Source of the DNA: Diospyros lotus
Lineage: Eukaryota; Streptophyta; Magnoliopsida; Ericales; Ebenaceae
Reading direction: 5' to 3'
Length of the DNA: 64,000 nucleotides
Assembly: GCF_014633365.1 (NCBI RefSeq)
Contig: NC_068349.1
Span: 24,628,753 to 24,692,752, forward strand
Below, piece after piece: positions 1 to 18,856 of this stretch. The notes beneath the pieces were generated by a model, which saw only the letters and a program-made list of their open reading frames with translations, had not been told where the DNA came from and did no database searches. The translations under genes and the position numbers were made by a program. Every line of letters begins with the position of its first letter. Position 1 is the first letter of the stretch.

Positions 1-3000
1 AACCTTAGACCGATCCACTTCTATACCCTTCTTAGACAGAACATGCCCTAAAACAATTCCTTGTTCTACCATGAAATGACATTTTTCAAAATTTAAAACA
101 AGGTTCTTTTCAATGCATCTCTCTAGGACTCTACCCAAGCTAACCAAGCAATCATCAAAAGAAGTGCCATAAACTGAAAAATCATCCATGAATACTTCCA
201 TGCAATGCTCTAGAAAATCCGAAAATATACTTACCATGCATCGCTGAAAGGTACCTGGAGCATTACATAGACCGAAAGGCATTCTTCTATAAGCGAATGT
301 GCCAAAGGGGCAGGTGAAGGTGGTCTTCTCTTGATCCTCTAGGGCTATGCAAATCTGAAAGTATCCAGAAAAACCGTCAAGGAAACAATAGTGTGACTTA
401 CCAGCCAACCTCTCCAACATCTGATCAATGAATGGGAGGGGGAAATGATCTTTTCTGGTTGCTTGGTTCAGCTTTCTATAATCAATGCAGACTCTCCAAC
501 TGTTCTGCACTCTCATGGGGATGAGCTCATTGTGCTCATTTGGGACCACCGTGATGCCCGTCTTTTTTGGGACAACCTGCACGGGACGCACCCACTTGCT
601 GTCAGAAATAGGGTAAATAATACCGGCTGCAAGTAATTTACTTACCTCCTGTTTTACCACATCAAGGATGGTTGGGTTAAGTCTTCTTTGAGGATGCCTT
701 GCTGGTTTTGCTCCTTCCTCCAATAAGATACGGTGCATGCAAACAGATGGGCTGATTCCAGTTATGTCCGCTAAAGTCCACCCAATTGCTTTCTTATTAT
801 TTTTCAGCACATCCAGCAACTTTCTCTCTTGGTCAGGCTGCAAGTTGTTTGCAATGATGACTAGCAGCTTCTCATCTTTCTCCAAGAATGCATACTTGAG
901 GTGCCGAGGCAAAGGCTTGCACTGAATGGTGGGTGGCTGCTGCAAAGAGGGGGCTAACCTATTTGACTGGAACTCTAACTCCAAGGCACTATCAACCTGC
1001 TCAACAAGGTTAGCAGCACTATCTTCCACTTGGGAAATGTTAGCATCAAAATCAAACTCATGTCTATGCAAAAATTCAGCAATCTCTAAGCATGCAGCAC
1101 ATTGACTCTCTCCATCACTACAATTAGTGCAAATAATCGTATCTGGGAACTCATGCACAGTGGGGAATTCGTCAATTAAATCAGAAGACTCAGAACATGC
1201 TTCATTCACTAACAGGTCAACTCTATTTACTTGAAAAGTGGAATGATCCTCGGCAGGGAATTTCATGGCATCAAGTATCTTGAAGTTAATTGTGTTACCA
1301 GCAAATTCCATGGAAAGTGTACCCTCATGCACATTGATAATAGTTCTAGCAGTTTTTAAGAATGGTCTCCCTAGGATCAAGGGTGCATGCTCAAGTGTGC
1401 TGTTATCTTCCATATTCAAAACATAAAAATCTGCTGGAAAGATTAAATCCTTAACCTTAACCAGCACATCTTCTAGGACTCCAGTGGGGTGTGCAGTACT
1501 TCTATTGGCTAGTTGGACAACCACTCCTGTTGGCTTCAAAGGACCACACTGCAATGAAGCATAAATAGAGTTAGGCATGACATTAATGGATGCACCTAAA
1601 TCTAGTAAAGCATTGCTAAATTGCATGTCTCCTATAGTACAAGGAATGGAGAACATCCCTGGATCTTTACACTTTGCTGGCATGGCAGGTTGGATAAGGG
1701 CAGAGACATTTCTCCCAAGGTTGATCTTCTCATTCCCCATAAGCTTCCTCTTGTGAGTACACAAATCCTTGAGAAATTTTGCATACTTGGGGATCTGTCT
1801 AATGGCTTCAAGGAGGGGGATGTTGACTTCAACTTTCTGGAATGTTTCCAGAATCTCTTTATCCACTTCGGCCTCTGCTCTTTTCTTGTTTTGTGTTGCT
1901 CGATGTGGGAATGGTAGGGGCTGGATGTTGGAAGACTCTCCTTGTTCTTGATAGCTGGAGTTTGGTTGCTTGGCTTCTTGGACTGAGGAGGGTTGCTGCT
2001 CTTTGCTACCCTCTACATTCTGCTCCTCTACATGTTGCTCCATGTTTGATGATGGTGGAGGGGTTGGGATGATCACTTCTTTCCCACTTCGAAGCATGAT
2101 GGCACTAACATTACCCCTTGGATTGGCAACTGGTTGTGAAGGAAGCTGCCCCGAACCTTGACTCCTTAACTCATTGATGTTTGTGGCTAGCTGGCCTATT
2201 TGGGTCTCCAAATTTTGAATTGTGGTTTCTGTTTTCTGTTGGAATTGGAGTGTGTTGGCTGCTAGTTGCTTAACAAGATCATCTAAGGTAGGTTCTGACT
2301 TGGGTAATGGTGGTGCTTGTTGCATGGCTTGATTCTGCCTTGGTGGTGGAGCATGGTTGCTTGAAATTGAAGGATGGAACCTCTGCTGAAATGGTTGATT
2401 CTGGTGGTATGGCTGCTGCTGGTGCACATGTTGACTGGAAGGGCTGCCATATCTGAGGTTTGGATGGTCTCTCCAACCTAGATTGTAGGTGGCTGAGTAT
2501 GGATCATACTTGTGTTGTGGCTGCTGCTGGAAAGGTCTACCAGGGAAGATGCCAGCAACAGATTCATTATTTTCTTGCAACTGTGGGCATTGATCTGTTG
2601 TATGGGATGGCAAGGAGCAAATGCTACAAAGCTGCTGCTGGGGTTGCTTTCTCTCTAATGCCAACTGCCTGACCATGGAAGCCAATTCCTCAAGCTTGTT
2701 TTCCATCCTTTGCTGGTCCATAGTGGCAGCCACATTGACTTCATTGATGGCTTTTGTAGGAGTGTTAATTCTGGTGCCAAACTGCTGAGCATTTTGTGCC
2801 ATCTTTGATATCAGCTCTTGTGCAGCTGCTGGGGTCTTCTCTGCCAAAGCTCCTCCACTTGCAGCATCTACCAAGTACCTGTCCATGGGGATTAAACCTT
2901 CATAGAGATACTGAATTAGGAGTTGGTCACTTATCTGATGGTGAGGACAGCTGGAACACAACTTTTTGAACCTCTCCCAATACTCATGTAGAGTTTCACC

Positions 3001-3106
3001 ACTCATCTGCCTTATACCACAAATTTCCTTCCTTATTGATGCTGTTCTAGAGGCTGGAAAGAATTTTTCCAGGAAGATCCTTTTCAATACATCCCAGCTG
3101 GTGGTA
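1..3106 (-). CDS. Athila-like Ty3/gypsy gag-pol, 5'-truncated part running off the left edge
   Basis: Reading the minus strand in the frame whose triplets start at position 1, I found no stop codon from about 3106 to 1, so over 1000 codons are open. In order, it shows the end of the capsid domain, a CCHC zinc knuckle (2587-2628, CX2CX4HX4C), a glycine/glutamine-rich linker, an aspartic protease site DLGAS (1588-1602), and reverse transcriptase with the MPFGLCNAP block (about 262-284) and the FMDD catalytic motif (181-192). RNase H and integrase would lie beyond the window. The RT wording matches the Athila lineage as I know it. The element makes particle and replication proteins for its own retrotransposition. 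A frameshift near 3105 separates this frame from the upstream gag, and a 15-kb insertion lies at 3194. Apart from those two breaks the coding sequence looks young. Lineage confidence is moderate; gypsy gag-pol confidence is high. Confidence 0.88.
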
Positions 3107-3193
3107 GGTAGTAGAGCCAATCTTTGGCTGATCCATCAAGTGAGAATGGGAAGGCTCTCAGCTTGATCTGCTCTTCATCTACTCCTTGTGGCC
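3107..3193 (-). pseudogene. Athila gag fragment between the frameshift and the 15-kb insertion
   Basis: On the minus strand this short stretch continues the gag of 18431-18856 directly after Met-Arg-Pro and reads through an AFPFSLDG-type capsid segment to a YYLPP motif. The sequence then resumes in a different frame with WDVLKRIFLEKFF-type residues. The codon phase changes from triplets at positions divisible by 3 to triplets at position 1 modulo 3 near 3105, so a small deletion has frameshifted gag. Bases 3189-3193 (TGGCC) are one copy of the target-site duplication of the insertion that follows. Confidence 0.8.
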
Positions 3194-3387
3194 TGATTAG
3201 TGATCAATTTTGTAAAAATTTTATTATAATTTCACCCTTATTTTGATCTTAAAATAGTTTAAATTGAATATTATTATGCATTTTGTGATTTTGTGCATGT
3301 TTAAAATATTAATATAAAAATATATATAAAATATAAAAAAAATAAATATAATATATATAATAATATAATAATATAAAAAATATGGAA

Positions 3388-3529
3388 AGCCCAAGCCCAA
3401 GCCCAACACAAGGAAGGCCCAAGCCCAAGCCCAACACAAGGAAGGTTCAAGCCCAAGCCCAACACAAGCAAGGCCCAAGCCCAAGCCCAACACAAGCAAG
3501 GCCCAAGCCCAAAAATATGAAAAGCCCAA
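3388..3529 (+). repeat. 28-bp minisatellite rich in GCCCA (site II-like) motifs in the LTR promoter
   Basis: The AACACAAG core recurs at 3405, 3433, 3461 and 3489, a strict 28-bp spacing. Between the cores are runs of AAGCCCAAGCCCA. GGCCCA/AGCCCA matches the plant site II (TCP-factor) element, which is common upstream of proliferation-linked genes. The array lies about 190-330 bp upstream of the TATA box, where promoter activity would be expected. Equivalent arrays are in LTR 2 (about 10177-10318) and LTR 3 (about 16967-17108). Regulatory function is inferred. Confidence 0.7.
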
Positions 3530-3543
3530 GTCTCACAAATTGA

Positions 3544-3653
3544 TGACATCATCGCTTACATCATGGGTTGGAGTGACATCATCGCTTACATCATGGGTTG
3601 GAGTGACATCATCGCTTACATCATGAGTTGGAATTACATCATCGCTTACATCA
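3544..3653 (+). promoter_or_regulatory. Four tandem ocs/as-1-like bZIP sites in LTR 1
   Basis: A 20-bp motif repeats every 30 bp at 3544, 3574, 3604 and 3634. The minus-strand unit is TGATGTAAGCGATGATGTCA. The ocs element consensus for TGA-type bZIP factors, as I recall it, is TGACGTAAGCGATGACGTAA. The unit agrees at 17 of 20 positions, and two of the three differences are C to T within TGACG, the change expected from methyl-CpG decay. The array ends 63 bp upstream of the TATA box. Copies lie at 10333-10442 and 17123-17232. Binding by TGA factors is an inference. Confidence 0.65.
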
Positions 3654-3716
3654 TTAATTAGATATTTTGTATTATTAAATTATATAATTGAATAGTTTCC
3701 ATTACATTTTCTAGCC

Positions 3717-3724
3717 TATAAATA
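3717..3724 (+). promoter_or_regulatory. TATA box of LTR 1
   Basis: TATAAATA is preceded by CC and followed by GAGCAC, an excellent plant TATA context, in the expected U3 position downstream of the enhancer-like repeats. Transcription would begin about 30 bp later, near 3750. The same box is at 10506-10513 and 17296-17303. Confidence 0.75.
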
Positions 3725-3914
3725 GAGCACTTAGGGTGCATTTGTAAGGATTGGATTTTCTTATAATGAAAGTATAATTGTGATCTTTAGATTTCTCTCT
3801 TAAATTTTCAACTTTAGTTTCTATATAGTTTTGTTCTTAGAATTTTTCTCTTAAATCTTTAACCTTTGTTTCCATATAGTTGTATTATGTTATTCATATT
3901 GTCTTTTTATTATA

Positions 3915-4079
3915 TACCGCCTATATGGTCGGTTCAAAATAGTCTTTCAATTATTGTCTTTCAATTACATACCGCCTATATGGTCGGTTCAAAATAGTCT
4001 TTCAATTATTGTCTTTCAATTACATACCGCCTATATGGTCGGTTCAAAAAATAGTCTTTTAAATACTGTCTTTTAATTC
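3915..4079 (+). repeat. Three 55-bp repeats in the LTR transcribed leader
   Basis: The block TACCGCCTATATGGTCGG recurs at 3915, 3970 and 4025, each followed by TTCAAAATAGTC and a TC-rich tail. The copies are nearly identical, which suggests recent expansion or homogenisation. They would lie in the 5' part of the transcript, downstream of the predicted start. No function is known to me. Confidence 0.85.
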
Positions 4080-4856
4080 CCGTTATTTAAATTCCTGCCA
4101 ATTTATTTTAAAATGAAGATGAGTAGCTAAATCCATTCTTGGGTTAAGGCAAGGACAGTGTCCAACGCCAATGATTCCCAAAGAAAGCTGCGCTTAAAAT
4201 ATGTAATATTAATCTGATTCAATTTGAGCAGTGTGCGTATAGTGTATCTTTAAGTTTGGATTGAAGCATAAGCCTAACTTAGAATTTTCATGCCACGTAT
4301 GGAGATTGCTAGATCTGGAAACGTTTTCATACCCAAGCCTAAATGATTAATCTATATCTATAAATTCTGTCTATGGAATATAGTTCAATTTATGGTAATT
4401 GCTTAACTTAGAATTTCCATGCCATGTATGGATATTGCTTAAACAAGAATTACCATTATCTTGAACTAAATTTACTAACAGAGCTGTAAAACTTAATTCA
4501 GATGAATATTGCTGATCTTTTCTATCAAATTGGGAATTAATTGGTTTTGACACTGAAATTGCCTTGACCCAAGCTACTTAAATTCAGTATTAGTTTAGCT
4601 TTAATTATTGTCTTTAGATCATCTTAATTACCTCTTAAAATCAAATATTTTGTGATCTTCATTTTCATCAATAAATAATCTCCCTGTGAATCGACTCGGA
4701 CTCACCGAAATATAAATTTAAAATTGTACTACACGCACACTCGCACACTGGCGAGTATAATCGCCCTACACCTGCTTTAATAAGAGGATTGACGTCGGAT
4801 GAATTTGGTTGTAGTTTTGATAAATAAATGTGCAGGGTAGTGTAGCAGTCAGTTTT

Positions 4857-4874
4857 TGGCGCCGTTGCCGGGGA
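4857..4874 (+). other. Primer-binding site (tRNA-Asp) of unit 1
   Basis: TGGCGCCGTTGCCGGGGA lies five bases after the LTR 1 end. It is complementary over 18 nt to the 3' end of plant tRNA-Asp(GTC) including CCA, the primer typical of Athila elements. The identical site of the host Athila element is at 20145-20162, on the opposite strand. Confidence 0.9.
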
Positions 4875-5222
4875 GATTAAATTTGGTTGAATTTTGTTGT
4901 TTAAAAAAAATATTAAAAAAAAATAATTAAAAAAAATATTTTCAAAAAATATATATATAAAATATATATTTGAAAAAAATACTAAAAAAAATAATAAAAT
5001 AATAAAAAAATATAAATTAAAAAATAATAAAAAAAATATAAATTAAAAAATAATAAAAAAATATAAATTAAAAATAATTTAAAAAATTAAATTTTAAAAA
5101 AAAATTTAGATAACTTTTAGTTACTAAACAGTGCAAGAGATTACGGTCAGGTATGATTATTGAAACATTAATTGATTCATTAGCATCATTATCTGCCGTT
5201 GAATTGTCATTCCATATTCTCT
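4875..5222 (+). other. AT-rich untranslated leader of unit 1
   Basis: Positions 4900-5105 are almost pure A/T with repeated AATAATAAAAAAATATAAATT-type blocks and contain no coding signal. The leader ends in a short mixed-sequence stretch before the first good ATG of the following ORF. Low-complexity A-runs explain the single-base length difference from the copy at 11664-12012. Confidence 0.6.
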
Positions 5223-6227
5223 ATGTCTCAGTATTTTAGCATGTCTGTGACTTCTAATGCATTTGGCCATCCCGATCCCAATGAGGGGAGGTTTTCTTTT
5301 GACCAGAGTCAAAGGGAGAATTCTTATATGTCGGGCTACAACCCAGATCTTTACACTGATTACCCCAATTCCTATGATCATTGGAATTATCCTTGGAACA
5401 ATGACTCTGTGTTCCAATCTCATGAGCCTTTTCCTCCACCACCTCACCAATTTGAGTTAGAACAAGATGTTAGATCTGATGCTTATCAACCTCAGGATGA
5501 AAATTTTCTAGAGGACACCCTTCAGGAGTTTATGCAAGGTCAAATGAGTTTTAATGCACAAGTGGTCGAACTTCAAGACCAAACCACTAGAGCCATAGGT
5601 GACATTTTAGAACAATTGACCGAGTTTACACAGACCTTGAGCGCGAGTGAACTTGGCGAGTTTCCAAACCAACCTAATCAAAATTCCATAGGTCAATGTC
5701 TTGGGGAGGAATCGTCATTCAATGCACCCATAGGTCAAGAGTCGGTCCAATCTATACCCATCCCTAGGAATGATGAATCAATTGAGAGACTTGATGACCC
5801 TAGGATGGTACGAGCAATCATAGAAGAAAAATTGGGCCAAAATGATGTGAGAAAAGAAGAAGCCTTGGAGAAAGAAAAGGATAAAACCCAAGAGCCCAAA
5901 TGTGAAGATACCACGGGCCTAGCCAAACTTGAGCCTAAATTTATGTCTTTTAAGCTAGTCTATATTATTGGGAATCAAATTAAACCAGACATGTGTGAAG
6001 TGTTTGTGCGAATTGATGTGTCGTACTCTGATGTAATAAAGCCAACACCTCCGGATGACATATTTTCAAAATATGTATGTGCGTTTATGAGAAAAATCAA
6101 TTTACATAATTTTGAAAATAACTTTAAACGTGGTGTAATGAATGAGAGTTATTATACGAATAGGTGGGCAACCACTTATTTGATTCTTAACTGGAAGAAA
6201 AGAAAAAAACTCTTAAAAAATATTTAA
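5223..6227 (+). CDS. ORF1 of the LOG-carrying element, unit 1 (unknown protein, 334 aa)
   Basis: I do not recognise this protein. The frame is open from a TTG at 5199, but the first ATG is at 5223, so I start there (MSQYFSMSV). The N-terminal third is rich in Tyr, Asp, Pro and Asn and ends in PFPPPPHQ. A likely coiled coil follows (starting ENFLEDTLQEFMQGQ), then a low-complexity part, a strongly charged helix (about residues 192-225) and a Lys-rich C-terminus. Its position after the primer site is that of gag, and the coiled-coil part vaguely recalls the post-zinc-knuckle region of Athila gag proteins, but there is no zinc knuckle and no capsid motif. It may be a decayed or repurposed Gag. 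It is identical in the second unit, so it is intact there too. Confidence 0.7.
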   Translation: MSQYFSMSVTSNAFGHPDPNEGRFSFDQSQRENSYMSGYNPDLYTDYPNSYDHWNYPWNNDSVFQSHEPFPPPPHQFELEQDVRSDAYQPQDENFLEDTLQEFMQGQMSFNAQVVELQDQTTRAIGDILEQLTEFTQTLSASELGEFPNQPNQNSIGQCLGEESSFNAPIGQESVQSIPIPRNDESIERLDDPRMVRAIIEEKLGQNDVRKEEALEKEKDKTQEPKCEDTTGLAKLEPKFMSFKLVYIIGNQIKPDMCEVFVRIDVSYSDVIKPTPPDDIFSKYVCAFMRKINLHNFENNFKRGVMNESYYTNRWATTYLILNWKKRKKLLKNI

Positions 6228-6701
6228 AAATATATAATAAAATAAAATTTGTTTTTGTAATAAATAAATATATATATACACAAAAGAAAAAAAAGATAGA
6301 GAAAAGAAGGAGACAGACATATCGCTGACGGCAACCACTTTTCTGGGGCAGTGCAATCACACTGCCCTATAAAGAAAAAGGACACAATACCCTATAAAGA
6401 AAAAGAAACATCTAGCGTTGAAAAATAAACGCCGAAAGTTGTAAAAGGAGATGCCGAACATTGAAAAAAGGAGACGCCAGACGTGACCCTGCACTTGTGG
6501 CACGCCTCGAGCCAAGTGTGGTTGTTGGAATGGTGACTAGCACAGCCCTATAAGAGACCTGTATCTGCATGAGGCAAGCCACACTTCTTTGAGCTCAGTC
6601 TTCTCTCCTTTGTGTTGTTCTCCGATCAGGTACTCTCGTTCCTTTTGTAAGATTCATAATTTTGTTTTATTTCTCTTTTACTATAGTTCTGTTTTAAAAA
6701 A
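6228..6701 (+). promoter_or_regulatory. Intergenic region with a possible internal promoter and splice donor, unit 1
   Basis: This 474-bp gap holds two copies of CCCTATAAAGAAAAAG (about 6365-6406), three imperfect repeats of about 22 bp with GCCGAA/GCCAGA cores (6417-6483), and a TATAAG box at 6549-6554 in the context CCCTATAAGAGACC. A CT-rich leader follows (6590-6620), then CAG|GTACTC at 6629/6630, a good plant splice donor. The composition is much richer in G+C than the flanks. A promoter for the two downstream ORFs is plausible but unproven. Confidence 0.4.
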
Positions 6702-7247
6702 ATGGATCTTCAGCTCTTGAAAATTCGCAAGTACTATCCATCTCTCCCACAAAATGATTTAAGAAAGATTTATGCCACTAGGTGTGAAAGACTTCGAATG
6801 TTGATGTATAAAAATATCCCTGAGGATATTCGCTGGTTAATTGAAGCAAAAGTTCGATTTCTTGGCGAAACCTCACCTAGTTTTAAGCATTTTCCAGGAT
6901 TGGGAAAGAGTAGTTTTTCGAAAAAAAGAAGAGCGAAAAGATTAAATGGTTGTCACAAATGTGCTCGATGGACTTGTAACACACGATGTAAATCTGTGGG
7001 GTTTACTTCCATAAATCGAGATGATAAAATTTGTTTCATAAAGGATGGGCTGAGTAAGGAGTCTTTGGATGATATCCGATTGACTCTTGAGACGCATCCG
7101 TGTGGAATAGTGCAGCGAGAAATTCTTGCTTTATGGACCGAATTTAGAAGTGACCACCAACGCTATAGTCTTGGGAATCTGACTATAATTGACCCTGTTT
7201 GCCAATCTATAAGAAAATTGGATGGGAAGCCTATCCCCGCTTCATAG
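6702..7247 (+). CDS. ORF2 of the LOG-carrying element, unit 1 (basic Cys-rich finger protein, 181 aa)
   Basis: The ORF starts with ATG after an A-run and is intact in both units. The N-terminal half is helical and basic. Residues 73-80 form the basic run SKKRRAKR, followed at once by C84-x2-C87-x4-C92-x3-C96 and a further Cys at 111, which suggests a zinc-binding nucleic-acid-binding module with a nuclear signal. The layout of a glycine/lysine segment, an Arg/Lys-Ala run and then CxxC resembles the small Cys-rich nucleic-acid-binding proteins of carlaviruses and relatives, which act as silencing suppressors or nuclear transcription regulators. The resemblance is short and could be convergent. 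Codons for residues about 115-132 contain the same GGCTGAGTAAGGAGT...CTCTTGAGACGCATC motif that recurs in the 3' region. Function unknown; nucleic-acid binding is the best guess. Confidence 0.7.
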   Translation: MDLQLLKIRKYYPSLPQNDLRKIYATRCERLRMLMYKNIPEDIRWLIEAKVRFLGETSPSFKHFPGLGKSSFSKKRRAKRLNGCHKCARWTCNTRCKSVGFTSINRDDKICFIKDGLSKESLDDIRLTLETHPCGIVQREILALWTEFRSDHQRYSLGNLTIIDPVCQSIRKLDGKPIPAS

Positions 7248-7432
7248 AAGGTGTTTAAGCCGTTTCTGGACGTAAAACCAGAGGAAGATGTGAGCCACAA
7301 TCACAACTACTTGTATATACGCATGATTTTTGTTTATGTTTATTTATTGTTGAATTTCTATGTAGTTACTTTTGATTGCCAAACCTCTTTAACCAGTTCT
7401 ACTTTCAGGGCATACATAAAGAACTAACATAA
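7248..7432 (+). promoter_or_regulatory. Spacer with a strong splice acceptor before the LOG ORF, unit 1
   Basis: A T-rich stretch ends in TTCTACTTTCAG (acceptor AG at 7407-7408), 24 bases before the LOG start codon, with a branch-point-like CTTTAAC upstream. Pairing this with the donor at 6629/6630 would remove a 779-nt intron containing all of ORF2 and place the CT-rich leader directly before LOG. No other feature was seen in the gap. Confidence 0.4.
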
Positions 7433-8092
7433 ATGGAAGGCCAGCCAGTTCGTCGAATCAATACCATATGTGTACTATGTGGCTCTCAACCTGGGAGCGA
7501 TATTTGTTACACACTTGCAGCAAGCGAACTTGGCATAAAATTGGGAGAGAGAAAAATTAATTTGGTCTATGGAGGGGGAAGTCGTGGATTGAATGGATGT
7601 GTTTCACAGGCTGCACATCTTGGGCAATCATATGTGGTAGGTATTATGCCAATCCCTTTGGCTGATCCACAGATTTCCGGGTACACACGAGGTCAACTTA
7701 TAAGAACAACTTCTATGTCTGAGCGCATGGCTTGTAAGATTTATCAGTCAGACGCCTTCATTGCTTTGCCAGGAGGTTTTGGTACACTTGAAGAAATCTT
7801 TTGTATAATCTCCTGGGCCAAGAGCAATCTCCATACCAAACCCATTGGACTTTTAAATATTAACCATTTTTTTGATGGGTTGCTCTCTTTTCTTGATCAG
7901 GCTGTGGAACAAAAGTTCATTTCTCTTTCTGCAAGAAATATTCTCATTTCCGCATCCACCATTGAGGAGCTACTAGAGAAATTACACACTTATGTTCCAC
8001 AGCATGATCCTTACGAGCCTCGGATAGACTGGTCTAAGGTAATTGGAAGCAAGCGCAAAAGGGGTCCGATTAATTTAGATTTATCCCTCTAA
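7433..8092 (+). CDS. LOG-like: LOG-family cytokinin riboside 5'-monophosphate phosphoribohydrolase, unit 1 (219 aa)
   Basis: LOG enzymes release active cytokinin free bases from cytokinin nucleotides in one step in the cytosol or nucleus. Residues 11-16 (TICVLC) and GGGSRGLNG (47-55) form the Rossmann-type nucleotide-binding core. Arg98 in MSERM and Glu121 in PGGFGTLEE (113-121) correspond to the catalytic Arg and Glu of the family. DAFIALPGG, ISWA, KPIGLLN, SFLDQAVE and the C-terminal HTYVP block are all in family order. Length equals that of plant LOGs (about 215-230 aa). Unlike host LOG genes, which have several introns, the ORF is uninterrupted. It is clearly diverged: GGGSIGLMG is GGGSRGLNG here and the HQRKAEM stretch is SERMACKI. 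A KRKR run near the C-terminus could be a nuclear signal. Identity to LOG is very likely; activity and exact substrate are inferred. Confidence 0.92.
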   Translation: MEGQPVRRINTICVLCGSQPGSDICYTLAASELGIKLGERKINLVYGGGSRGLNGCVSQAAHLGQSYVVGIMPIPLADPQISGYTRGQLIRTTSMSERMACKIYQSDAFIALPGGFGTLEEIFCIISWAKSNLHTKPIGLLNINHFFDGLLSFLDQAVEQKFISLSARNILISASTIEELLEKLHTYVPQHDPYEPRIDWSKVIGSKRKRGPINLDLSL

Positions 8093-8097
8093 GGAGA

Positions 8098-8173
8098 GCA
8101 AGTCTATGATAACATGGCTGAGTAAGGAGTACTTTTCTGTACTCTTGAGACGCATCTGTTTATTTTGACTTGC
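8098..8173 (+). repeat. Structured repeat 1 downstream of LOG, unit 1
   Basis: GCAAGTC (8098-8104) and GACTTGC (8167-8173) form an outer inverted repeat. Inside lies GAGTAC-TTTTCT-GTACTC (8127-8144) flanked by GGCTGAGTAAG and TTGAGACGCATC. A second copy follows at 8221-8297, and the flanks also occur in ORF2 at 7049-7098. The nested stems suggest an RNA element. Confidence 0.6.
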
Positions 8174-8220
8174 ATGAATTTTTTTATGTTTTGTTTTAAA
8201 AAATTATGGAATGTTGTTAG

Positions 8221-8297
8221 GCAAGTCTATGATAATATGGCTGAGTAAGGAGTACTTTTTGTACTCTTGAGACGCATCTCTTTATTATATGACTTGC
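8221..8297 (+). repeat. Structured repeat 2 downstream of LOG, unit 1
   Basis: This is the second copy of the preceding repeat, with the same outer GCAAGTC/GACTTGC pair (8221-8227 and 8291-8297) and the inner hairpin GAGTAC-TTTTT-GTACTC (8250-8266). Loop and spacer differ from copy 1 while both stems stay paired. Confidence 0.6.
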
Positions 8298-8311
8298 ATG
8301 ATTTTTTCTTA

Positions 8312-9234
8312 TTTTGATGTGAAAAAGAAAAAAAATATAAAAAATATATGTAGGGTATTCTCACTTGTTTGTTGAAGATTTAGCAGTTCACAGTAAACTT
8401 ACAGACTCGTGGAGTTACAGGTATTCCTAACAAACCCTATTTTATTACTGCAATTCAAGTTGGAGGGAGTAAGGTATATTTATGAACTATCTAGTCCATG
8501 TTTAACTGTGAATTTGTAACTGCATGCTTGTAATTTTATATGAATTATTTACTTTTATCTACTCTTATTAAAAATCAAAAAATTGTGCGTGCTTTAAATA
8601 ATGCTATCCCTAAAGCTTTGGAGTTATAAACTGATAGCCAGTTGAATTTGCAGTATGAATCATGAATGCATTAATTTCTTATTTGAAACCGTAGATATGT
8701 GGGATTAGAATAAGTGATTTGCATGCATCGGGTGTTCAATAATTAGAAATTGGTTTATCGGTCATAAAGTCAAAGGCAATGGTAATTAGCACACTGCATG
8801 ATCCCTTAACAGAAGTGGAGACTATTACCCGAGTGAGTGTTTGAGCCTAATGATCATTAATTCTGAGTGAAATAACACTTATTCTAAATGCGTTTTATTG
8901 TTGATCTCATATTTTCAATAGCTTCAAAACATCAATTTGCTTTGAATGTCTAGTATGATGGCGGATGAATTTGGCTGATTTCAAACTCTGAATTAGTTGA
9001 CTGAGTAACATCGTTTTATAGAAGCATGATAGGGGATCAATTTCTTTCAATTTGGACCTATTAACCTTTTTCTTTCTTCACATTAACCCCCTTGCTAGCC
9101 CATTTGAGCTGTTCTTAGCATAATTCCTTTCATTACCCTCGTCTAACCTAGAACCATATGAAGTTTATCCAACCTGGTGTGTTTTTAGGAATCAGTCTAT
9201 CTCGGTACTTTCATATTAAAAAGAAACAAAAAAA

Positions 9235-9272
<38 letters not shown>

Positions 9273-9960
9273 AAGAAAAAATGGAAGTTCTCTTAGCTTT
9301 TCAGCACGAGTGTTTCAAAATAAATGCTGAAGAAAAAAATATGTTTAATTTGATATTAGTGTCAAAAAAAAAAAAAAAATCCCAACACACCCTTTGCACA
9401 CTTTACCCTTTTCTTTGGCAACTCGTATTAACCTCATAGCCCCATTACAACCCGGTCTGATCCCTCTTGATGCTATAAATCATGTGATCTTAGGATTCGA
9501 GTTCAGAGTAAAGAATTCTGTTTAAATTCAGAAGTTATTTATCTATGGCATTATTCCAGTCATGAAGCTATGTTAAATTCCCTATTCTTTCATGAAAATA
9601 CGTTCTTTGTATTTGGGACGACACCGAGTTTGAACTTGTTTTACATTTATTCTTAAAACGGTGGCTCCCTTGTGTGTACACCCGAGGAATAATTTTTTTT
9701 TATTTGAGGAAAAATCCATAGTAAGGTTTGAAGTCGAAACTTCGAGGGAATAAGATAGAATAATGATCATCCTAATTGCCATTCCTAAGATTGTATGACC
9801 TTTGACCGAAATCTGATTTAGAATATTCGACTGTATGACAGATAGCTTGTTCTATTCTATGTATTTCGGTTTCGAATTTGAAATTTTTTTTATTCATGTG
9901 ATTATTGTGAATAAATACTGGCTAGTGTAAAGTCTAATTGCTATGGGACTAGCAATGTTT
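8312..9960 (+). other. AT-rich 3' non-coding region, unit 1
   Basis: There is no recognisable gene in these 1.6 kb. The stretch holds an A-run of about 60 bases broken by a few G and C (9221-9282), a second A-run at 9364-9379, and scattered CATTAACC/CATTACAACC pieces that recall the 3' region of Athila elements. The 93-aa poly-lysine reading frame at 9158-9439 is only the A-run. Base 8393 is G here and A in unit 2. Confidence 0.6.
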
Positions 9961-9973
9961 AAGTTGGGGGGTG
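9961..9973 (+). other. Polypurine tract of unit 1
   Basis: AAGTTGGGGGGTG lies directly before the TG of LTR 2, the position of the plus-strand primer. The same tract precedes LTR 3 at 16751-16763. Confidence 0.85.
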
Positions 9974-11640
9974 TGATTAGTGATCAATTTTGTAAAAATT
10001 TTATTATAATTTCACCCTTATTTTGATCTTAAAATAGTTTAAATTGAATATTATTATGCATTTTGTGATTTTGTGCATGTTTAAAATATTAATATAAAAA
10101 TATATATAAAATATATAAAATATAAAAAAAATAAATATAATATATATAATAATATAATAATATAAAAAATATGGAAAGCCCAAGCCCAAGCCCAACACAA
10201 GGAAGGCCCAAGCCCAAGCCCAACACAAGGAAGGTTCAAGCCCAAGCCCAACACAAGCAAGGCCCAAGCCCAAGCCCAACACAAGCAAGGCCCAAGCCCA
10301 AAAATATGAAAAGCCCAAGTCTCACAAATTGATGACATCATCGCTTACATCATGGGTTGGAGTGACATCATCGCTTACATCATGGGTTGGAGTGACATCA
10401 TCGCTTACATCATGAGTTGGAATTACATCATCGCTTACATCATTAATTAGATATTTTGTATTATTAAATTATATAATTGAATAGTTTCCATTACATTTTC
10501 TAGCCTATAAATAGAGCACTTAGGGTGCATTTGTAAGGATTGGATTTTCTTATAATGAAAGTATAATTGTGATCTTTAGATTTCTCTCTTAAATTTTCAA
10601 CTTTAGTTTCTATATAGTTTTGTTCTTAGAATTTTTCTCTTAAATCTTTAACCTTTGTTTCCATATAGTTGTATTATGTTATTCATATTGTCTTTTTATT
10701 ATATACCGCCTATATGGTCGGTTCAAAATAGTCTTTCAATTATTGTCTTTCAATTACATACCGCCTATATGGTCGGTTCAAAATAGTCTTTCAATTATTG
10801 TCTTTCAATTACATACCGCCTATATGGTCGGTTCAAAAAATAGTCTTTTAAATACTGTCTTTTAATTCCCGTTATTTAAATTCCTGCCAATTTATTTTAA
10901 AATGAAGATGAGTAGCTAAATCCATTCTTGGGTTAAGGCAAGGACAGTGTCCAACGCCAATGATTCCCAAAGAAAGCTGCGCTTAAAATATGTAATATTA
11001 ATCTGATTCAATTTGAGCAGTGTGCGTATAGTGTATCTTTAAGTTTGGATTGAAGCATAAGCCTAACTTAGAATTTTCATGCCACGTATGGAGATTGCTA
11101 GATCTGGAAACGTTTTCATACCCAAGCCTAAATGATTAATCTATATCTATAAATTCTGTCTATGGAATATAGTTCAATTTATGGTAATTGCTTAACTTAG
11201 AATTTCCATGCCATGTATGGATATTGCTTAAACAAGAATTACCATTATCTTGAACTAAATTTACTAACAGAGCTGTAAAACTTAATTCAGATGAATATTG
11301 CTGATCTTTTCTATCAAATTGGGAATTAATTGGTTTTGACACTGAAATTGCCTTGACCCAAGCTACTTAAATTCAGTATTAGTTTAGCTTTAATTATTGT
11401 CTTTAGATCATCTTAATTACCTCTTAAAATCAAATATTTTGTGATCTTCATTTTCATCAATAAATAATCTCCCTGTGAATCGACTCGGACTCACCGAAAT
11501 ATAAATTTAAAATTGTACTACACGCACACTCGCACACTGGCGAGTATAATCGCCCTACACCTGCTTTAATAAGAGGATTGACGTCGGATGAATTTGGTTG
11601 TAGTTTTGATAAATAAATGTGCAGGGTAGTGTAGCAGTCA
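9974..11640 (+). repeat. LTR 2 of the LOG-carrying element (shared by both units)
   Basis: This 1,667-bp LTR equals LTR 3 in length and, by eye, in sequence, and differs from LTR 1 by a 9-bp expansion near 10110. It carries the same promoter parts: minisatellite about 10177-10318, ocs/as-1-like sites 10333-10442, TATA 10506-10513, and 55-bp repeats about 10704-10868. It serves as 3' LTR of unit 1 and 5' LTR of unit 2. Confidence 0.95.
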
Positions 11641-11645
11641 GTTTT

Positions 11646-11663
11646 TGGCGCCGTTGCCGGGGA
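11646..11663 (+). other. Primer-binding site (tRNA-Asp) of unit 2
   Basis: TGGCGCCGTTGCCGGGGA again lies five bases after the LTR end, identical to the site in unit 1. The AT-rich leader of unit 2 runs from here to 12012. Confidence 0.9.
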
Positions 11664-12012
11664 GATTAAATTTGGTTGAATTTTGTTGTTTAAAAAAAAT
11701 ATTAAAAAAAAAATAATTAAAAAAAATATTTTCAAAAAATATATATATAAAATATATATTTGAAAAAAATACTAAAAAAAATAATAAAATAATAAAAAAA
11801 TATAAATTAAAAAATAATAAAAAAAATATAAATTAAAAAATAATAAAAAAATATAAATTAAAAATAATTTAAAAAATTAAATTTTAAAAAAAAATTTAGA
11901 TAACTTTTAGTTACTAAACAGTGCAAGAGATTACGGTCAGGTATGATTATTGAAACATTAATTGATTCATTAGCATCATTATCTGCCGTTGAATTGTCAT
12001 TCCATATTCTCT

Positions 12013-13017
12013 ATGTCTCAGTATTTTAGCATGTCTGTGACTTCTAATGCATTTGGCCATCCCGATCCCAATGAGGGGAGGTTTTCTTTTGACCAGAGTC
12101 AAAGGGAGAATTCTTATATGTCGGGCTACAACCCAGATCTTTACACTGATTACCCCAATTCCTATGATCATTGGAATTATCCTTGGAACAATGACTCTGT
12201 GTTCCAATCTCATGAGCCTTTTCCTCCACCACCTCACCAATTTGAGTTAGAACAAGATGTTAGATCTGATGCTTATCAACCTCAGGATGAAAATTTTCTA
12301 GAGGACACCCTTCAGGAGTTTATGCAAGGTCAAATGAGTTTTAATGCACAAGTGGTCGAACTTCAAGACCAAACCACTAGAGCCATAGGTGACATTTTAG
12401 AACAATTGACCGAGTTTACACAGACCTTGAGCGCGAGTGAACTTGGCGAGTTTCCAAACCAACCTAATCAAAATTCCATAGGTCAATGTCTTGGGGAGGA
12501 ATCGTCATTCAATGCACCCATAGGTCAAGAGTCGGTCCAATCTATACCCATCCCTAGGAATGATGAATCAATTGAGAGACTTGATGACCCTAGGATGGTA
12601 CGAGCAATCATAGAAGAAAAATTGGGCCAAAATGATGTGAGAAAAGAAGAAGCCTTGGAGAAAGAAAAGGATAAAACCCAAGAGCCCAAATGTGAAGATA
12701 CCACGGGCCTAGCCAAACTTGAGCCTAAATTTATGTCTTTTAAGCTAGTCTATATTATTGGGAATCAAATTAAACCAGACATGTGTGAAGTGTTTGTGCG
12801 AATTGATGTGTCGTACTCTGATGTAATAAAGCCAACACCTCCGGATGACATATTTTCAAAATATGTATGTGCGTTTATGAGAAAAATCAATTTACATAAT
12901 TTTGAAAATAACTTTAAACGTGGTGTAATGAATGAGAGTTATTATACGAATAGGTGGGCAACCACTTATTTGATTCTTAACTGGAAGAAAAGAAAAAAAC
13001 TCTTAAAAAATATTTAA
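12013..13017 (+). CDS. ORF1, unit 2 (unknown protein, 334 aa)
   Basis: The translation is identical to the ORF at 5223-6227, with the first ATG at 12013 (an open frame extends up to a TTG at 11989). The same features are present: Tyr/Pro-rich N-terminus, coiled coil, charged helix and Lys-rich end. Perfect identity over the whole ORF indicates that the tandem duplication is very recent or that the copies are kept alike by gene conversion. The product is not recognised. Confidence 0.7.
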   Translation: MSQYFSMSVTSNAFGHPDPNEGRFSFDQSQRENSYMSGYNPDLYTDYPNSYDHWNYPWNNDSVFQSHEPFPPPPHQFELEQDVRSDAYQPQDENFLEDTLQEFMQGQMSFNAQVVELQDQTTRAIGDILEQLTEFTQTLSASELGEFPNQPNQNSIGQCLGEESSFNAPIGQESVQSIPIPRNDESIERLDDPRMVRAIIEEKLGQNDVRKEEALEKEKDKTQEPKCEDTTGLAKLEPKFMSFKLVYIIGNQIKPDMCEVFVRIDVSYSDVIKPTPPDDIFSKYVCAFMRKINLHNFENNFKRGVMNESYYTNRWATTYLILNWKKRKKLLKNI

Positions 13018-13491
13018 AAATATATAATAAAATAAAATTTGTTTTTGTAATAAATAAATATATATATACACAAAAGAAAAAAAAGATAGAGAAAAGAAGG
13101 AGACAGACATATCGCTGACGGCAACCACTTTTCTGGGGCAGTGCAATCACACTGCCCTATAAAGAAAAAGGACACAATACCCTATAAAGAAAAAGAAACA
13201 TCTAGCGTTGAAAAATAAACGCCGAAAGTTGTAAAAGGAGATGCCGAACATTGAAAAAAGGAGACGCCAGACGTGACCCTGCACTTGTGGCACGCCTCGA
13301 GCCAAGTGTGGTTGTTGGAATGGTGACTAGCACAGCCCTATAAGAGACCTGTATCTGCATGAGGCAAGCCACACTTCTTTGAGCTCAGTCTTCTCTCCTT
13401 TGTGTTGTTCTCCGATCAGGTACTCTCGTTCCTTTTGTAAGATTCATAATTTTGTTTTATTTCTCTTTTACTATAGTTCTGTTTTAAAAAA
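13018..13491 (+). promoter_or_regulatory. Possible internal promoter region, unit 2
   Basis: This repeats 6228-6701: duplicated CCCTATAAAG boxes, a TATAAG box at 13339-13344, a CT-rich leader and a splice-donor-like CAG|GT at 13419/13420. Confidence 0.4.
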
Positions 13492-14037
13492 ATGGATCTT
13501 CAGCTCTTGAAAATTCGCAAGTACTATCCATCTCTCCCACAAAATGATTTAAGAAAGATTTATGCCACTAGGTGTGAAAGACTTCGAATGTTGATGTATA
13601 AAAATATCCCTGAGGATATTCGCTGGTTAATTGAAGCAAAAGTTCGATTTCTTGGCGAAACCTCACCTAGTTTTAAGCATTTTCCAGGATTGGGAAAGAG
13701 TAGTTTTTCGAAAAAAAGAAGAGCGAAAAGATTAAATGGTTGTCACAAATGTGCTCGATGGACTTGTAACACACGATGTAAATCTGTGGGGTTTACTTCC
13801 ATAAATCGAGATGATAAAATTTGTTTCATAAAGGATGGGCTGAGTAAGGAGTCTTTGGATGATATCCGATTGACTCTTGAGACGCATCCGTGTGGAATAG
13901 TGCAGCGAGAAATTCTTGCTTTATGGACCGAATTTAGAAGTGACCACCAACGCTATAGTCTTGGGAATCTGACTATAATTGACCCTGTTTGCCAATCTAT
14001 AAGAAAATTGGATGGGAAGCCTATCCCCGCTTCATAG
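13492..14037 (+). CDS. ORF2, unit 2 (basic Cys-rich finger protein, 181 aa)
   Basis: The translation is identical to the ORF at 6702-7247. It keeps the basic run at residues 73-80, the C84/C87/C92/C96 cluster and the embedded hairpin-flanking motif. The intact second copy argues that neither unit has decayed since duplication. Family assignment is uncertain for the same reasons as in unit 1. The spacer 14038-14222 to the next ORF carries the splice acceptor at 14197-14198. Confidence 0.7.
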   Translation: MDLQLLKIRKYYPSLPQNDLRKIYATRCERLRMLMYKNIPEDIRWLIEAKVRFLGETSPSFKHFPGLGKSSFSKKRRAKRLNGCHKCARWTCNTRCKSVGFTSINRDDKICFIKDGLSKESLDDIRLTLETHPCGIVQREILALWTEFRSDHQRYSLGNLTIIDPVCQSIRKLDGKPIPAS

Positions 14038-14222
14038 AAGGTGTTTAAGCCGTTTCTGGACGTAAAACCAGAGGAAGATGTGAGCCACAATCACAACTAC
14101 TTGTATATACGCATGATTTTTGTTTATGTTTATTTATTGTTGAATTTCTATGTAGTTACTTTTGATTGCCAAACCTCTTTAACCAGTTCTACTTTCAGGG
14201 CATACATAAAGAACTAACATAA

Positions 14223-14882
14223 ATGGAAGGCCAGCCAGTTCGTCGAATCAATACCATATGTGTACTATGTGGCTCTCAACCTGGGAGCGATATTTGTTAC
14301 ACACTTGCAGCAAGCGAACTTGGCATAAAATTGGGAGAGAGAAAAATTAATTTGGTCTATGGAGGGGGAAGTCGTGGATTGAATGGATGTGTTTCACAGG
14401 CTGCACATCTTGGGCAATCATATGTGGTAGGTATTATGCCAATCCCTTTGGCTGATCCACAGATTTCCGGGTACACACGAGGTCAACTTATAAGAACAAC
14501 TTCTATGTCTGAGCGCATGGCTTGTAAGATTTATCAGTCAGACGCCTTCATTGCTTTGCCAGGAGGTTTTGGTACACTTGAAGAAATCTTTTGTATAATC
14601 TCCTGGGCCAAGAGCAATCTCCATACCAAACCCATTGGACTTTTAAATATTAACCATTTTTTTGATGGGTTGCTCTCTTTTCTTGATCAGGCTGTGGAAC
14701 AAAAGTTCATTTCTCTTTCTGCAAGAAATATTCTCATTTCCGCATCCACCATTGAGGAGCTACTAGAGAAATTACACACTTATGTTCCACAGCATGATCC
14801 TTACGAGCCTCGGATAGACTGGTCTAAGGTAATTGGAAGCAAGCGCAAAAGGGGTCCGATTAATTTAGATTTATCCCTCTAA
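14223..14882 (+). CDS. LOG-like: LOG-family cytokinin-activating enzyme, unit 2 (219 aa)
   Basis: The translation is identical to the ORF at 7433-8092, with Arg98, PGGFGTLEE (113-121) and full family length. Two intact copies at one locus, each read from its own LTR promoter, could double gene dosage. Because LTR 2 precedes this unit, transcripts could start at 10506+30 and end in LTR 3. Confidence 0.92.
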   Translation: MEGQPVRRINTICVLCGSQPGSDICYTLAASELGIKLGERKINLVYGGGSRGLNGCVSQAAHLGQSYVVGIMPIPLADPQISGYTRGQLIRTTSMSERMACKIYQSDAFIALPGGFGTLEEIFCIISWAKSNLHTKPIGLLNINHFFDGLLSFLDQAVEQKFISLSARNILISASTIEELLEKLHTYVPQHDPYEPRIDWSKVIGSKRKRGPINLDLSL

Positions 14883-14887
14883 GGAGA

Positions 14888-14963
14888 GCAAGTCTATGAT
14901 AACATGGCTGAGTAAGGAGTACTTTTCTGTACTCTTGAGACGCATCTGTTTATTTTGACTTGC
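14888..14963 (+). repeat. Structured repeat 1 downstream of LOG, unit 2
   Basis: Same as 8098-8173: outer GCAAGTC/GACTTGC and inner GAGTAC/GTACTC stems. Confidence 0.6.
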
Positions 14964-15010
14964 ATGAATTTTTTTATGTTTTGTTTTAAAAAATTATGGA
15001 ATGTTGTTAG

Positions 15011-15087
15011 GCAAGTCTATGATAATATGGCTGAGTAAGGAGTACTTTTTGTACTCTTGAGACGCATCTCTTTATTATATGACTTGC
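15011..15087 (+). repeat. Structured repeat 2 downstream of LOG, unit 2
   Basis: Same as 8221-8297, with the five-T loop. Confidence 0.6.
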
Positions 15088-15101
15088 ATGATTTTTTCTT
15101 A

Positions 15102-16024
15102 TTTTGATGTGAAAAAGAAAAAAAATATAAAAAATATATGTAGGGTATTCTCACTTGTTTGTTGAAGATTTAGCAGTTCACAATAAACTTACAGACTCGT
15201 GGAGTTACAGGTATTCCTAACAAACCCTATTTTATTACTGCAATTCAAGTTGGAGGGAGTAAGGTATATTTATGAACTATCTAGTCCATGTTTAACTGTG
15301 AATTTGTAACTGCATGCTTGTAATTTTATATGAATTATTTACTTTTATCTACTCTTATTAAAAATCAAAAAATTGTGCGTGCTTTAAATAATGCTATCCC
15401 TAAAGCTTTGGAGTTATAAACTGATAGCCAGTTGAATTTGCAGTATGAATCATGAATGCATTAATTTCTTATTTGAAACCGTAGATATGTGGGATTAGAA
15501 TAAGTGATTTGCATGCATCGGGTGTTCAATAATTAGAAATTGGTTTATCGGTCATAAAGTCAAAGGCAATGGTAATTAGCACACTGCATGATCCCTTAAC
15601 AGAAGTGGAGACTATTACCCGAGTGAGTGTTTGAGCCTAATGATCATTAATTCTGAGTGAAATAACACTTATTCTAAATGCGTTTTATTGTTGATCTCAT
15701 ATTTTCAATAGCTTCAAAACATCAATTTGCTTTGAATGTCTAGTATGATGGCGGATGAATTTGGCTGATTTCAAACTCTGAATTAGTTGACTGAGTAACA
15801 TCGTTTTATAGAAGCATGATAGGGGATCAATTTCTTTCAATTTGGACCTATTAACCTTTTTCTTTCTTCACATTAACCCCCTTGCTAGCCCATTTGAGCT
15901 GTTCTTAGCATAATTCCTTTCATTACCCTCGTCTAACCTAGAACCATATGAAGTTTATCCAACCTGGTGTGTTTTTAGGAATCAGTCTATCTCGGTACTT
16001 TCATATTAAAAAGAAACAAAAAAA

Positions 16025-16062
<38 letters not shown>

Positions 16063-16750
16063 AAGAAAAAATGGAAGTTCTCTTAGCTTTTCAGCACGAG
16101 TGTTTCAAAATAAATGCTGAAGAAAAAAATATGTTTAATTTGATATTAGTGTCAAAAAAAAAAAAAAAATCCCAACACACCCTTTGCACACTTTACCCTT
16201 TTCTTTGGCAACTCGTATTAACCTCATAGCCCCATTACAACCCGGTCTGATCCCTCTTGATGCTATAAATCATGTGATCTTAGGATTCGAGTTCAGAGTA
16301 AAGAATTCTGTTTAAATTCAGAAGTTATTTATCTATGGCATTATTCCAGTCATGAAGCTATGTTAAATTCCCTATTCTTTCATGAAAATACGTTCTTTGT
16401 ATTTGGGACGACACCGAGTTTGAACTTGTTTTACATTTATTCTTAAAACGGTGGCTCCCTTGTGTGTACACCCGAGGAATAATTTTTTTTTATTTGAGGA
16501 AAAATCCATAGTAAGGTTTGAAGTCGAAACTTCGAGGGAATAAGATAGAATAATGATCATCCTAATTGCCATTCCTAAGATTGTATGACCTTTGACCGAA
16601 ATCTGATTTAGAATATTCGACTGTATGACAGATAGCTTGTTCTATTCTATGTATTTCGGTTTCGAATTTGAAATTTTTTTTATTCATGTGATTATTGTGA
16701 ATAAATACTGGCTAGTGTAAAGTCTAATTGCTATGGGACTAGCAATGTTT
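15102..16750 (+). other. AT-rich 3' non-coding region, unit 2
   Basis: This repeats 8312-9960, including the long A-run (16011-16072). I noticed one substitution relative to unit 1, A at 15183. No gene is visible. Confidence 0.6.
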
Positions 16751-16763
16751 AAGTTGGGGGGTG
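16751..16763 (+). other. Polypurine tract of unit 2
   Basis: AAGTTGGGGGGTG directly precedes LTR 3, identical to 9961-9973. Confidence 0.85.
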
Positions 16764-18430: not shown

Positions 18431-18856
18431 TGGCCGCATGGTTGAGCAAACAACATGAAATTCTTTTAGATGCTTGTGTGGATCCTCTCCTGCAAGACCA
18501 TGAAACTTGGGCAACAAGTGGATTAGTCCAGATTTTAGTTCAAAGTTAGCATCCAAATGTGGGTATTGAATACATAGGGGCTGGTAATGCACATCAGGTG
18601 CAGCCAGCTCTCTAATGGTTCTACCATCCAAATGAGCTTGATTTGCATTATTTCCATTACCATTATTTCCATTACCATTATTTCCATTACCATTATCTGC
18701 CATATTGATGAATTCTGGAATAGGTTCGGATGAAGTGTTAGACACACTATTAGGGTCAATCCTATCCCGAGACTTAAGCTCTCTAGCTTGCCTTCTAAGA
18801 GTGTTCTCTAATTCAAGATCCAAGTCAAGTAATGTTTTCTTAGATGACCTGGTCAT
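18431..18856 (-). pseudogene. Athila-like gag, N-terminal part (broken by the 15-kb insertion)
   Basis: The ORF starts at ATG 18854-18856 (MTRSSKKTL) and runs through an Asn-Gly-rich low-complexity tract (NGNGNNGNGNN), then RELAAPDVHYQPLCIQYP, a FELKSGLIHLLPKFHG segment and EDPHKHLKEFHVVCSTMRP, all typical of Athila-type gag. The reading frame ends in a stop made by the first bases of LTR 3 at 18428-18430. The protein would resume at 3189 on the minus strand. This is capsid precursor of the host element, split by insertion. Confidence 0.88.

Follow-up and report, generated by a model that had tools for sequence, protein, structure and literature searches.

The window, by which we mean the whole 64,000-nucleotide stretch of Diospyros lotus DNA that was analyzed, contains a tandem array (3194-18430) in which three long terminal repeats (LTRs) and two internal regions follow one another in the order LTR-I-LTR-I-LTR, as determined by self-BLAST and alignment (Table 1). 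Each array unit has three ORFs of at least 150 aa, encoding (i) ORF1; (ii) a Cys-rich protein similar to those of carlaviruses; and (iii) a LOG-family protein. A gag or pol domain is missing from all three, so the element is non-autonomous, as the initial annotation had also concluded.

Table 1. Coordinates of the LOG-bearing array, its genes and its surroundings in the window
Feature	Position	Strand	Basis or remark
gag-pol frame (Retrotrans_gag, RVT_1) of the apparently interrupted element	1-3135	-	domain scan; rest beyond 18430
Target-site duplication TGGCC	left 3189-3193, right 18431-18435		flanks whole array
LTR 1 (TGATTAG...CAGTCA)	3194-4851	+	self-BLAST, alignment
PBS TGGCGCCGTTGCCGGGGA	4857-4874; second copy 11646-11663	+	
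ORF1, 330 aa	5235-6227	+	
TATA-like box CTATAAG upstream of cassette	6548-6554	+	conserved between A and B; putative promoter
Putative intron CAG|GT...TTTCAG|	6630-7408	+	donor 6629/6630, acceptor 7408/7409
Carlavirus-like nucleic-acid-binding (Cys-rich) protein, 181 aa	6702-7247	+	start 731 bp upstream of LOG
LOG-family protein, 219 aa	7433-8092	+	
Basic stretch KRKR, LOG residues 207-210	8051-8062	+	
LDLSL, LOG residues 215-219	8075-8089	+	EAR-type LxLxL in predicted disordered tail
LTR 2	9974-11640	+	self-BLAST, alignment
Virus-like ORF, second copy	13492-14037	+	
LOG ORF, second copy	14223-14882	+	
LTR 3	16764-18430	+	self-BLAST, alignment

The element and its insertion site

As expected of an LTR retrotransposon, the LTRs are near-identical and have TG...CA ends: no difference separates LTR2 from LTR3, nine gap columns and 0 substitutions separate LTR1 from both, and the internal regions are one substitution and one indel apart. 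Target-site duplications were found around the array (TGGCC) and were read in the flanks of another copy, L028 (CCCAT). The primer binding site (PBS) TGGCGCCGTTGCCGGGGA, which we take to be of the tRNA-Asp type, begins five bases past both LTR1 and LTR2, where 0 matches are expected by chance.

Since an LTR-I-LTR-I-LTR layout with a single pair of target-site duplications points to LTR recombination of one insertion, the tandem LOG pair is most simply explained as one insertion that was afterwards doubled; the same layout rules out two independent tandem captures of LOG. The two tandem copies emphasized in the initial annotation are thus present, and identical, but they are not evidence of selection. 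Elsewhere in the assembly (C14:18448121-18471026, locus L026), four LOG matches of subfamily B, defined below, lie in series 7.2-7.5 kb apart with an LTR present between the first two, and this series is probably a second LTR-recombination array.

The LOG element seems to sit inside a gag-pol retrotransposon of the opposite orientation (window 1-3135 and 18431-20162, minus strand). The interrupted element has the identical 18-base PBS at 20145-20162 (minus strand), and past the PBS the 5' parts of the two elements are hardly similar. It retains an open frame of 1045 aa that reaches the window end, so that the interrupted element may be young. The LOG element's own lineage is perhaps related to the Athila/OTA group of Ty3/gypsy elements. 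The Athila ORF-1 domain PF03078 had no match in the genome, and the control likewise matched nowhere; according to PMC6317226, 16% of Athila elements carry this domain. ORF1 of the window matched no Pfam family at E 0.001.

No autonomous partner was found among the gag-pol pieces of the window. The pieces at 34.4-36.4 kb (minus strand) and the frame at 1-3135 (minus strand), which have gag, protease, RT or RNase H domains, were rejected as parts of the LOG element because they lie outside its LTRs. Two further stretches on the minus strand, 37137-38891 and 48022-51054, are LTR-like and 70-83% similar to the element LTR; tblastn of the element's three proteins gave nothing convincing at either, and inspection by eye of 37-51 kb on that strand (the longest 24 pieces of at least 70 aa in 31-52 kb) recognized no gag-pol ORF.

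The LOG protein, its tail and its virus-like partner

As described in the initial annotation, the two LOG ORFs are identical, intron-free and 219 codons long, and lie between LTRs; the signatures that it named were found at residues 47-55 (GGGSRGLNG), 98 (Arg) and 113-121 (PGGFGTLEE). The protein matches PF03641 (E 1.2e-32), and its best relative in the PDB is At2g37210 (2a33, E 4.4e-55). The predicted fold is good (pLDDT 87.6) apart from a disordered tail at residues 205-219, and the solved structures nearest to the model are Arabidopsis LOG-family proteins. Downstream of the ORF, 8098-8203 and 8221-8326 form repeats that are 88% alike and that share the words CTGAGTAAGGAGT and GAGACGCATC with the virus-like ORF near 7048-7100.

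To place the protein among plant LOGs, two trees were used. The careful tree was built from hand-picked rows (21 element, 14 host including P0116, and 2 bacterial outgroup rows), and all 21 element rows fell on one side of a branch with support 98/96, apart from the host rows. A quick tree comprised 112 rows from the LOG list, chosen by a length filter and with P0118 assigned to the host side, plus 29 named host rows. It contained a branch with support 100 between 30 host-type rows and the remaining 111, and it needed two label changes, P0116, listed as element-type, grouping with the host rows. In these trees, the element-type LOGs, drawn from several eudicots, group in a single clade that excludes the sampled host LOGs. 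By name and tree, the host sample consists of LOG1/3- and LOG8-like proteins only, so the tail described below could exist in another host LOG clade. In D. lotus itself, a pattern search for host LOG genes gave five places, four of which were read; in all four an intron precedes the final exon, at a place where the element LOG runs on without interruption, consistent with the earlier statement that host LOGs contain introns. A recent host LOG pseudogene, which the separate position in the trees already argues against, is ruled out by this clade together with the open frames and the dN/dS ratios given below.

Conservation of the LOG domain was assessed at 53 positions that both bacterial LOGs used have in common with 95% or more of the host rows. 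In a set of 111 element rows, 41 of these positions are retained at a frequency of 90% or higher and 12 fall below 90%: K99 is kept in 6%, E124 in 5% and E80 in 3% of the 111, and E160 and G132 are likewise almost always replaced. The 120 element-type rows include truncated proteins and P0116, and 6 of the 120 have no PGGxGT; of the other 114, 111 retain Arg98, and 112 and 111 retain the two Glu that follow the motif. Given that residues common to plants and bacteria were replaced, cytokinin-releasing activity cannot be assumed, and the element LOG may be inactive as an enzyme. The NCBIfam LOG equivalog score of the window LOG (95.6 of 300 bits, below the cut-off) is uninformative as to activity, as three host LOGs used as controls also scored below the cut-off (116-132 bits); all of these proteins pass TIGR00730.

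Most element-type LOGs finish with a basic stretch followed by LDLxLxL. LxLxL occurs within the last 12 residues of 91 of the 120 element-type LOGs and of none of 120 host LOGs, and in 89 of the 91 at least three K/R residues precede it. Among 111 rows selected via a W/Y-plus-tail pattern, leucine occupies positions -1, -3 and -5 from the C-terminus in 96, 94 and 92, respectively, and positions -2 and -4 are variable. The 29 rows that lack a strict LxLxL include truncated rows, degenerate forms and rows from Xanthoceras. In D. lotus, 21 of 22 element copies read have the LxLxL letters, the exception (L027) ending in LDLSV; in L049 a stop precedes the tail; and the four host LOG genes read end without LxLxL. 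Six Xanthoceras sorbifolium rows (P0071, P0102, P0107, P0113, P0114 and P0121) end in SKKRRLA or SKKRKLA, without LxLxL, and form a separate lineage adjoining the element LOGs. These rows may preserve the state that preceded the tail.

LxLxL is the reported consensus of EAR repression motifs (PMC6283911, PMC9956375), which recruit TOPLESS (PMC6283911, PMC9956375, PMC7446885). It is not sufficient by itself, as ten other LxLxL effectors are reported to have failed to bind TOPLESS (PMC7446885). The LOG tail matches the EAR consensus, and its recruitment of TOPLESS is putative; a Leu-rich tail may also serve nuclear export or some other use.

Upstream of LOG, the 181-residue protein contains a basic stretch (KKRRAKR) followed by a Cys cluster, C-x2-C-x4-C-x3-C, the spacing of which differs from that of viral proteins. 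It matches PF05515 (Viral_NABP) with 30.2 bits against a cut-off of 23 (E 5.7e-7), and scores just under the cut-off for PF01623 (Carla_C4; 20.7 versus 20.9 bits). Each of these two families matches 49 of 52 virus-like proteins, the window's included, at E 0.01, and other families match at most 3 of the 52. Among the best 120 of 351 relatives, 103 have the Cys cluster and 106 the basic stretch. Structure prediction gave a weak model (pLDDT 70, pTM 0.38), and with this query a fold search against viral proteins returned nothing below E 0.1 (best E 0.16) and low TM-scores. In that search, which also uses sequence, 19 of the first 22 rows bear virus names that we take to belong to the flexivirus family, and 3 are nameless. 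When viral contigs were searched as a possible source, neither LOG nor the virus-like protein had a confirmed relative among them, a set from which near records of the own genome may be missing.

The layout of the two genes suggests how both might be expressed. A TATA-like string (CTATAAGAGAC) is present in 17 of 18 testable copies and would act as a promoter upstream of the cassette. Downstream of it, a putative splice donor and acceptor bracket the virus-like ORF. Both are common to subfamilies A and B, the donor string occurring in 14 of 18 testable copies and the acceptor string in 16; splicing would excise 779 nt including this ORF and make the LOG start codon the first.

Copies, linkage and selection in Diospyros lotus

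A search of the 630-Mb assembly with LOG gave 1132 candidates, and all of the best 150, which were scored, are matches; LOG is therefore not confined to this locus. Many of these 150 are near-identical. A hand count found stops in 29 and none in 121, and for the virus-like gene, too, all of the best 150 of 992 candidates match; as only the best-scored copies of each gene were considered, the open-frame fraction is biased upward.

Twenty 10-kb stretches were fetched from the list of LOG copies. Of the 19 testable for both genes (L024 was excluded, as its stretch ends at the LOG start), 18 have LOG and the virus-like gene in the same order. The exception, L025, has an open LOG frame without the virus-like gene and an ORF1-like piece on the opposite strand, indicating that LOG can occur without its partner. 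In L027, the virus-like gene has four stops. Direct evidence of physical linkage between the two genes comes only from D. lotus. LOG and virus-like matches on contigs of equal length (8723, 4511 and 2128 bases) hint at linkage in further species, but as short lengths coincide in part by chance, we give them no weight. LTR pairs are visible in 8 of the 20 stretches, with 0, 1, 2, 4, 8, 12, 13 (a partial pair) and 30 mismatches, including a pair of 1708 bp without mismatches in L010 and one of 2041 bp with 99.85% identity in L028; within the 10 kb of each of the other 12, the copy's own LTR pair was not visible. These observations are best explained by a non-autonomous LTR retrotransposon family that has a high copy number and was active recently.

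The cassette genes recur in three subfamilies, A (including the window), B (including L028) and C, the last represented by a single copy (L049) whose LOG has a stop. ORF1 of the window is 90-97% identical to those of the fetched A copies and 46-48% identical to those of two B copies. Between A and B, dN/dS is 0.30 for LOG, 0.17 for the virus-like gene and 0.43 for ORF1 (Fisher P on the counts 2e-5, 8e-10 and 6e-8, respectively). The corresponding values for LOG are 0.26 (A-C) and 0.24 (B-C), those for the virus-like gene are 0.14 (A-C) and 0.25 (B-C), and ORF1 gives 0.52-0.81 within A. Ratios are higher in some pairs that include older copies: for LOG, 0.34-0.63 in pairs with L017, L019, L025 or L027; for the virus-like gene, 0.22-0.32 in L027 pairs, 0.44 with L019 and 0.80 with L017 (8 changes). 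We attribute these higher values to drift of dead copies.

Substitution patterns thus place both cassette genes under selection, the cargo being kept in working order as far as sequence can tell. The initial annotation had held that LOG was retained by selection rather than captured recently, and had called for dN/dS, a phylogeny with host LOGs and a genome search; the ratios are not near 1, and, with relatives in other eudicots (see below), all of these results agree with it.

The dN/dS ratios are complicated by recombination, as dS between A and B is unequal (ORF1 0.84, virus-like gene 0.33, LOG 0.21) and the spacer between the genes (89% similar) is as alike as the genes themselves (90-91%). 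The stretch upstream is 79% similar, and the LTRs are 70-78% similar over their alignable parts. The cassette has probably been exchanged between element backbones. In L049, ORF1 upstream of the cassette is 91% like that of A, whereas dS of the cassette genes is lower to B than to A; from this one copy, the cassette seems to move between backbones.

Relatives, rival explanations and proposed role

Close LOG relatives are named from Diospyros, Populus, Xanthoceras, Reevesia, Diplodiscus, Pterospermum, Rehmannia and Primulina (best 120 of 7880), and relatives of the virus-like protein from Populus, Xanthoceras, Acer, Rhamnella and Orobanche (best 120 of 351); among the best 120 of each, both kinds are named from Populus and Xanthoceras. 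Three gene models of Orobanche gracilis fuse a virus-like part to a LOG-domain part, and one of them, P0206, ends in LDLSL. It is likely that the relatives in other species also reside in LTR elements. The cargo is real, selected and common to distant eudicots, and its cytokinin role is putative.

LOGL4-like extra ORFs were reportedly found in two Athila-like elements by Steinbauerova et al. (2011, Genetica). Although the initial annotation knew of no retrotransposon with LOG cargo, such cargo is already in print: a LOG-type YgdH domain, for which the authors cite Steinbauerova 2011, is reported in Ty3/gypsy LTR elements of Citrus and, with a filter off, of Populus trichocarpa (PMC9289625). 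Like ours, these plant LTR elements have an additional LOG-family domain, but the section that reports them mentions neither a tail nor a virus-like partner, and says nothing of selection, of a splicing layout or of how active the copies are. In the open-access literature, we found no report of the LOG tail, the virus-like partner or their pairing. As far as that search extends, the tail, the partner, their linkage and the selection on both genes are new.

Other known systems resemble the cassette in part. Plant LOGs (At2g37210, At5g11950) have the same fold, PF03641, Arg98 and PGGxGTxxE, but the element LOG is intron-free, belongs to a separate clade, has the replaced residues and ends in the basic and LxLxL tail. 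With the Cys-rich proteins of carlaviruses and other flexiviruses, such as chrysanthemum virus B p12, the virus-like protein has PF05515/PF01623 and the order of basic stretch and Cys cluster in common; unlike them, it is borne by a retrotransposon, is about 181 aa long and has no significant fold match. Its viral relatives are reported to be silencing suppressors or transcription factors, and p12 to be a transcription activator that causes hyperplasia (PMC7588395, PMC12172455). The TOPLESS-binding EAR effectors HaRxL21 (PMC7446885) and Jsi1 of U. maydis (PMC8126959) are likewise parasite proteins with LxLxL, which is reported to be C-terminal in HaRxL21, as in the element LOG (PMC7446885); the latter, in contrast, is encoded by a mobile element in a plant genome, joins LxLxL to a LOG domain and would bind TOPLESS only putatively. 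Extra coding sequence is also kept in other plant Ty3/gypsy elements, namely TRP28 of Retand, a proposed regulator of its element (PMC11963269), and an m6A demethylase-type domain in orchids (PMC9289625). As described in those sources, these belong to other protein families than the LOG cassette, and the TRP28 ORFs are antisense to gag-pol (PMC11963269), whereas the cassette genes are in sense with their element, as judged from PBS and LTR order.

We consider it fairly probable that the element is a non-autonomous retrotransposon, perhaps Athila-related, with a two-gene cassette for host manipulation. It would be mobilized in trans. A common internal promoter would give a transcript from which gene 1 is made when it is unspliced and gene 2 when the 779-nt intron is removed. 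Gene 1 encodes a basic, nucleic-acid-binding protein of the zinc-finger kind that is akin to carlavirus Cys-rich proteins and, like its viral relatives, might dampen RNA silencing, activate host genes, or both. Gene 2 encodes a member of the LOG family to which a basic stretch and an LxLxL tail were added; the LOG would act in the nucleus, its tail being an EAR-type recruiter of TOPLESS corepressors and its LOG domain binding, and possibly hydrolyzing, cytokinin nucleotides. Both genes together would favor transcription of the element in dividing cells that produce the germ line. The initial annotation mentioned neither the upstream virus-like gene nor the EAR-type tail, and both alter the likely mechanism, making host regulation better supported than a hormone claim.

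A simpler account, close to that of the initial annotation, makes a working cytokinin-activating LOG the sole use of the cassette: local cytokinin would promote cell division, the element would be passed on, and the tail would be a signal for localization or stability. The fold and family are clear, Arg98 (111 of 114) and the two Glu (112 and 111 of 114) are retained, and 41 of the 53 shared positions are kept in at least 90% of the 111 rows; however, 12 of the 53 fall below this level, several being almost always replaced, and both the LxLxL tail and the virus-like partner are left unexplained, so that we hold this account to be rather improbable. The converse, that catalysis was lost and that LOG persists as a folded oligomer which carries the tail, or as a part of the element's particle or regulation, without a cytokinin effect, fits the clade-wide loss of K99, E124, G132, E80 and E160 while the tail was kept. 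Yet the catalytic Arg and Glu are almost invariant, which is unusual without catalysis, and we regard this reading as unlikely, though it deserves some weight.

A further reading, already disfavored and in our view highly improbable, treats the cassette as a neutral passenger whose apparent conservation stems from few recent masters and recombination. Many copies are indeed near-identical, recombination is evident, the non-coding spacer is conserved like the genes (89%), and some old-copy pairs reach dN/dS 0.6-0.8; but between subfamilies dN is well under dS, both proteins are full-length in distant eudicots, and tail positions alternate between fixed and free. As for gene 1, it is doubtful that the protein is not viral, in the sense that a plant zinc-finger protein was the source of both it and the viral proteins, or the form on which they converged. 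Its C-x2-C-x4-C-x3-C spacing is unlike the viral spacing, the Pfam match of the window copy is modest (E 5.7e-7) and the structural match is not significant, whereas the two viral families each match 49 of the 52 proteins, no other family matches more than 3, and flexivirus names fill 19 of the first 22 rows of the fold search (3 nameless), which also uses sequence.

Returning to the two-gene cassette for host manipulation, recognizable cargo, comprising a hormone-type enzyme, a corepressor-type motif and a viral-type Cys-rich protein, addresses the question of why plant LTR elements keep extra genes. Furthermore, since selected cargo is found in recently active copies, manipulation of host hormone, transcription and silencing pathways by a retrotransposon becomes directly testable. 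A bolder version, which we put forward tentatively and with some doubt, is that the cassette extends through a large part of the eudicots, is virulence-like and moves as a unit between backbones, pairing a viral-type silencing suppressor or transcription factor with a nuclear, TOPLESS-recruiting and cytokinin-linked LOG. If this were true, the cassette would be comparable to the accessory genes of complex retroviruses, and RNA-virus genes, retrotransposons and plant hormone enzymes would be joined in one parasitic unit.
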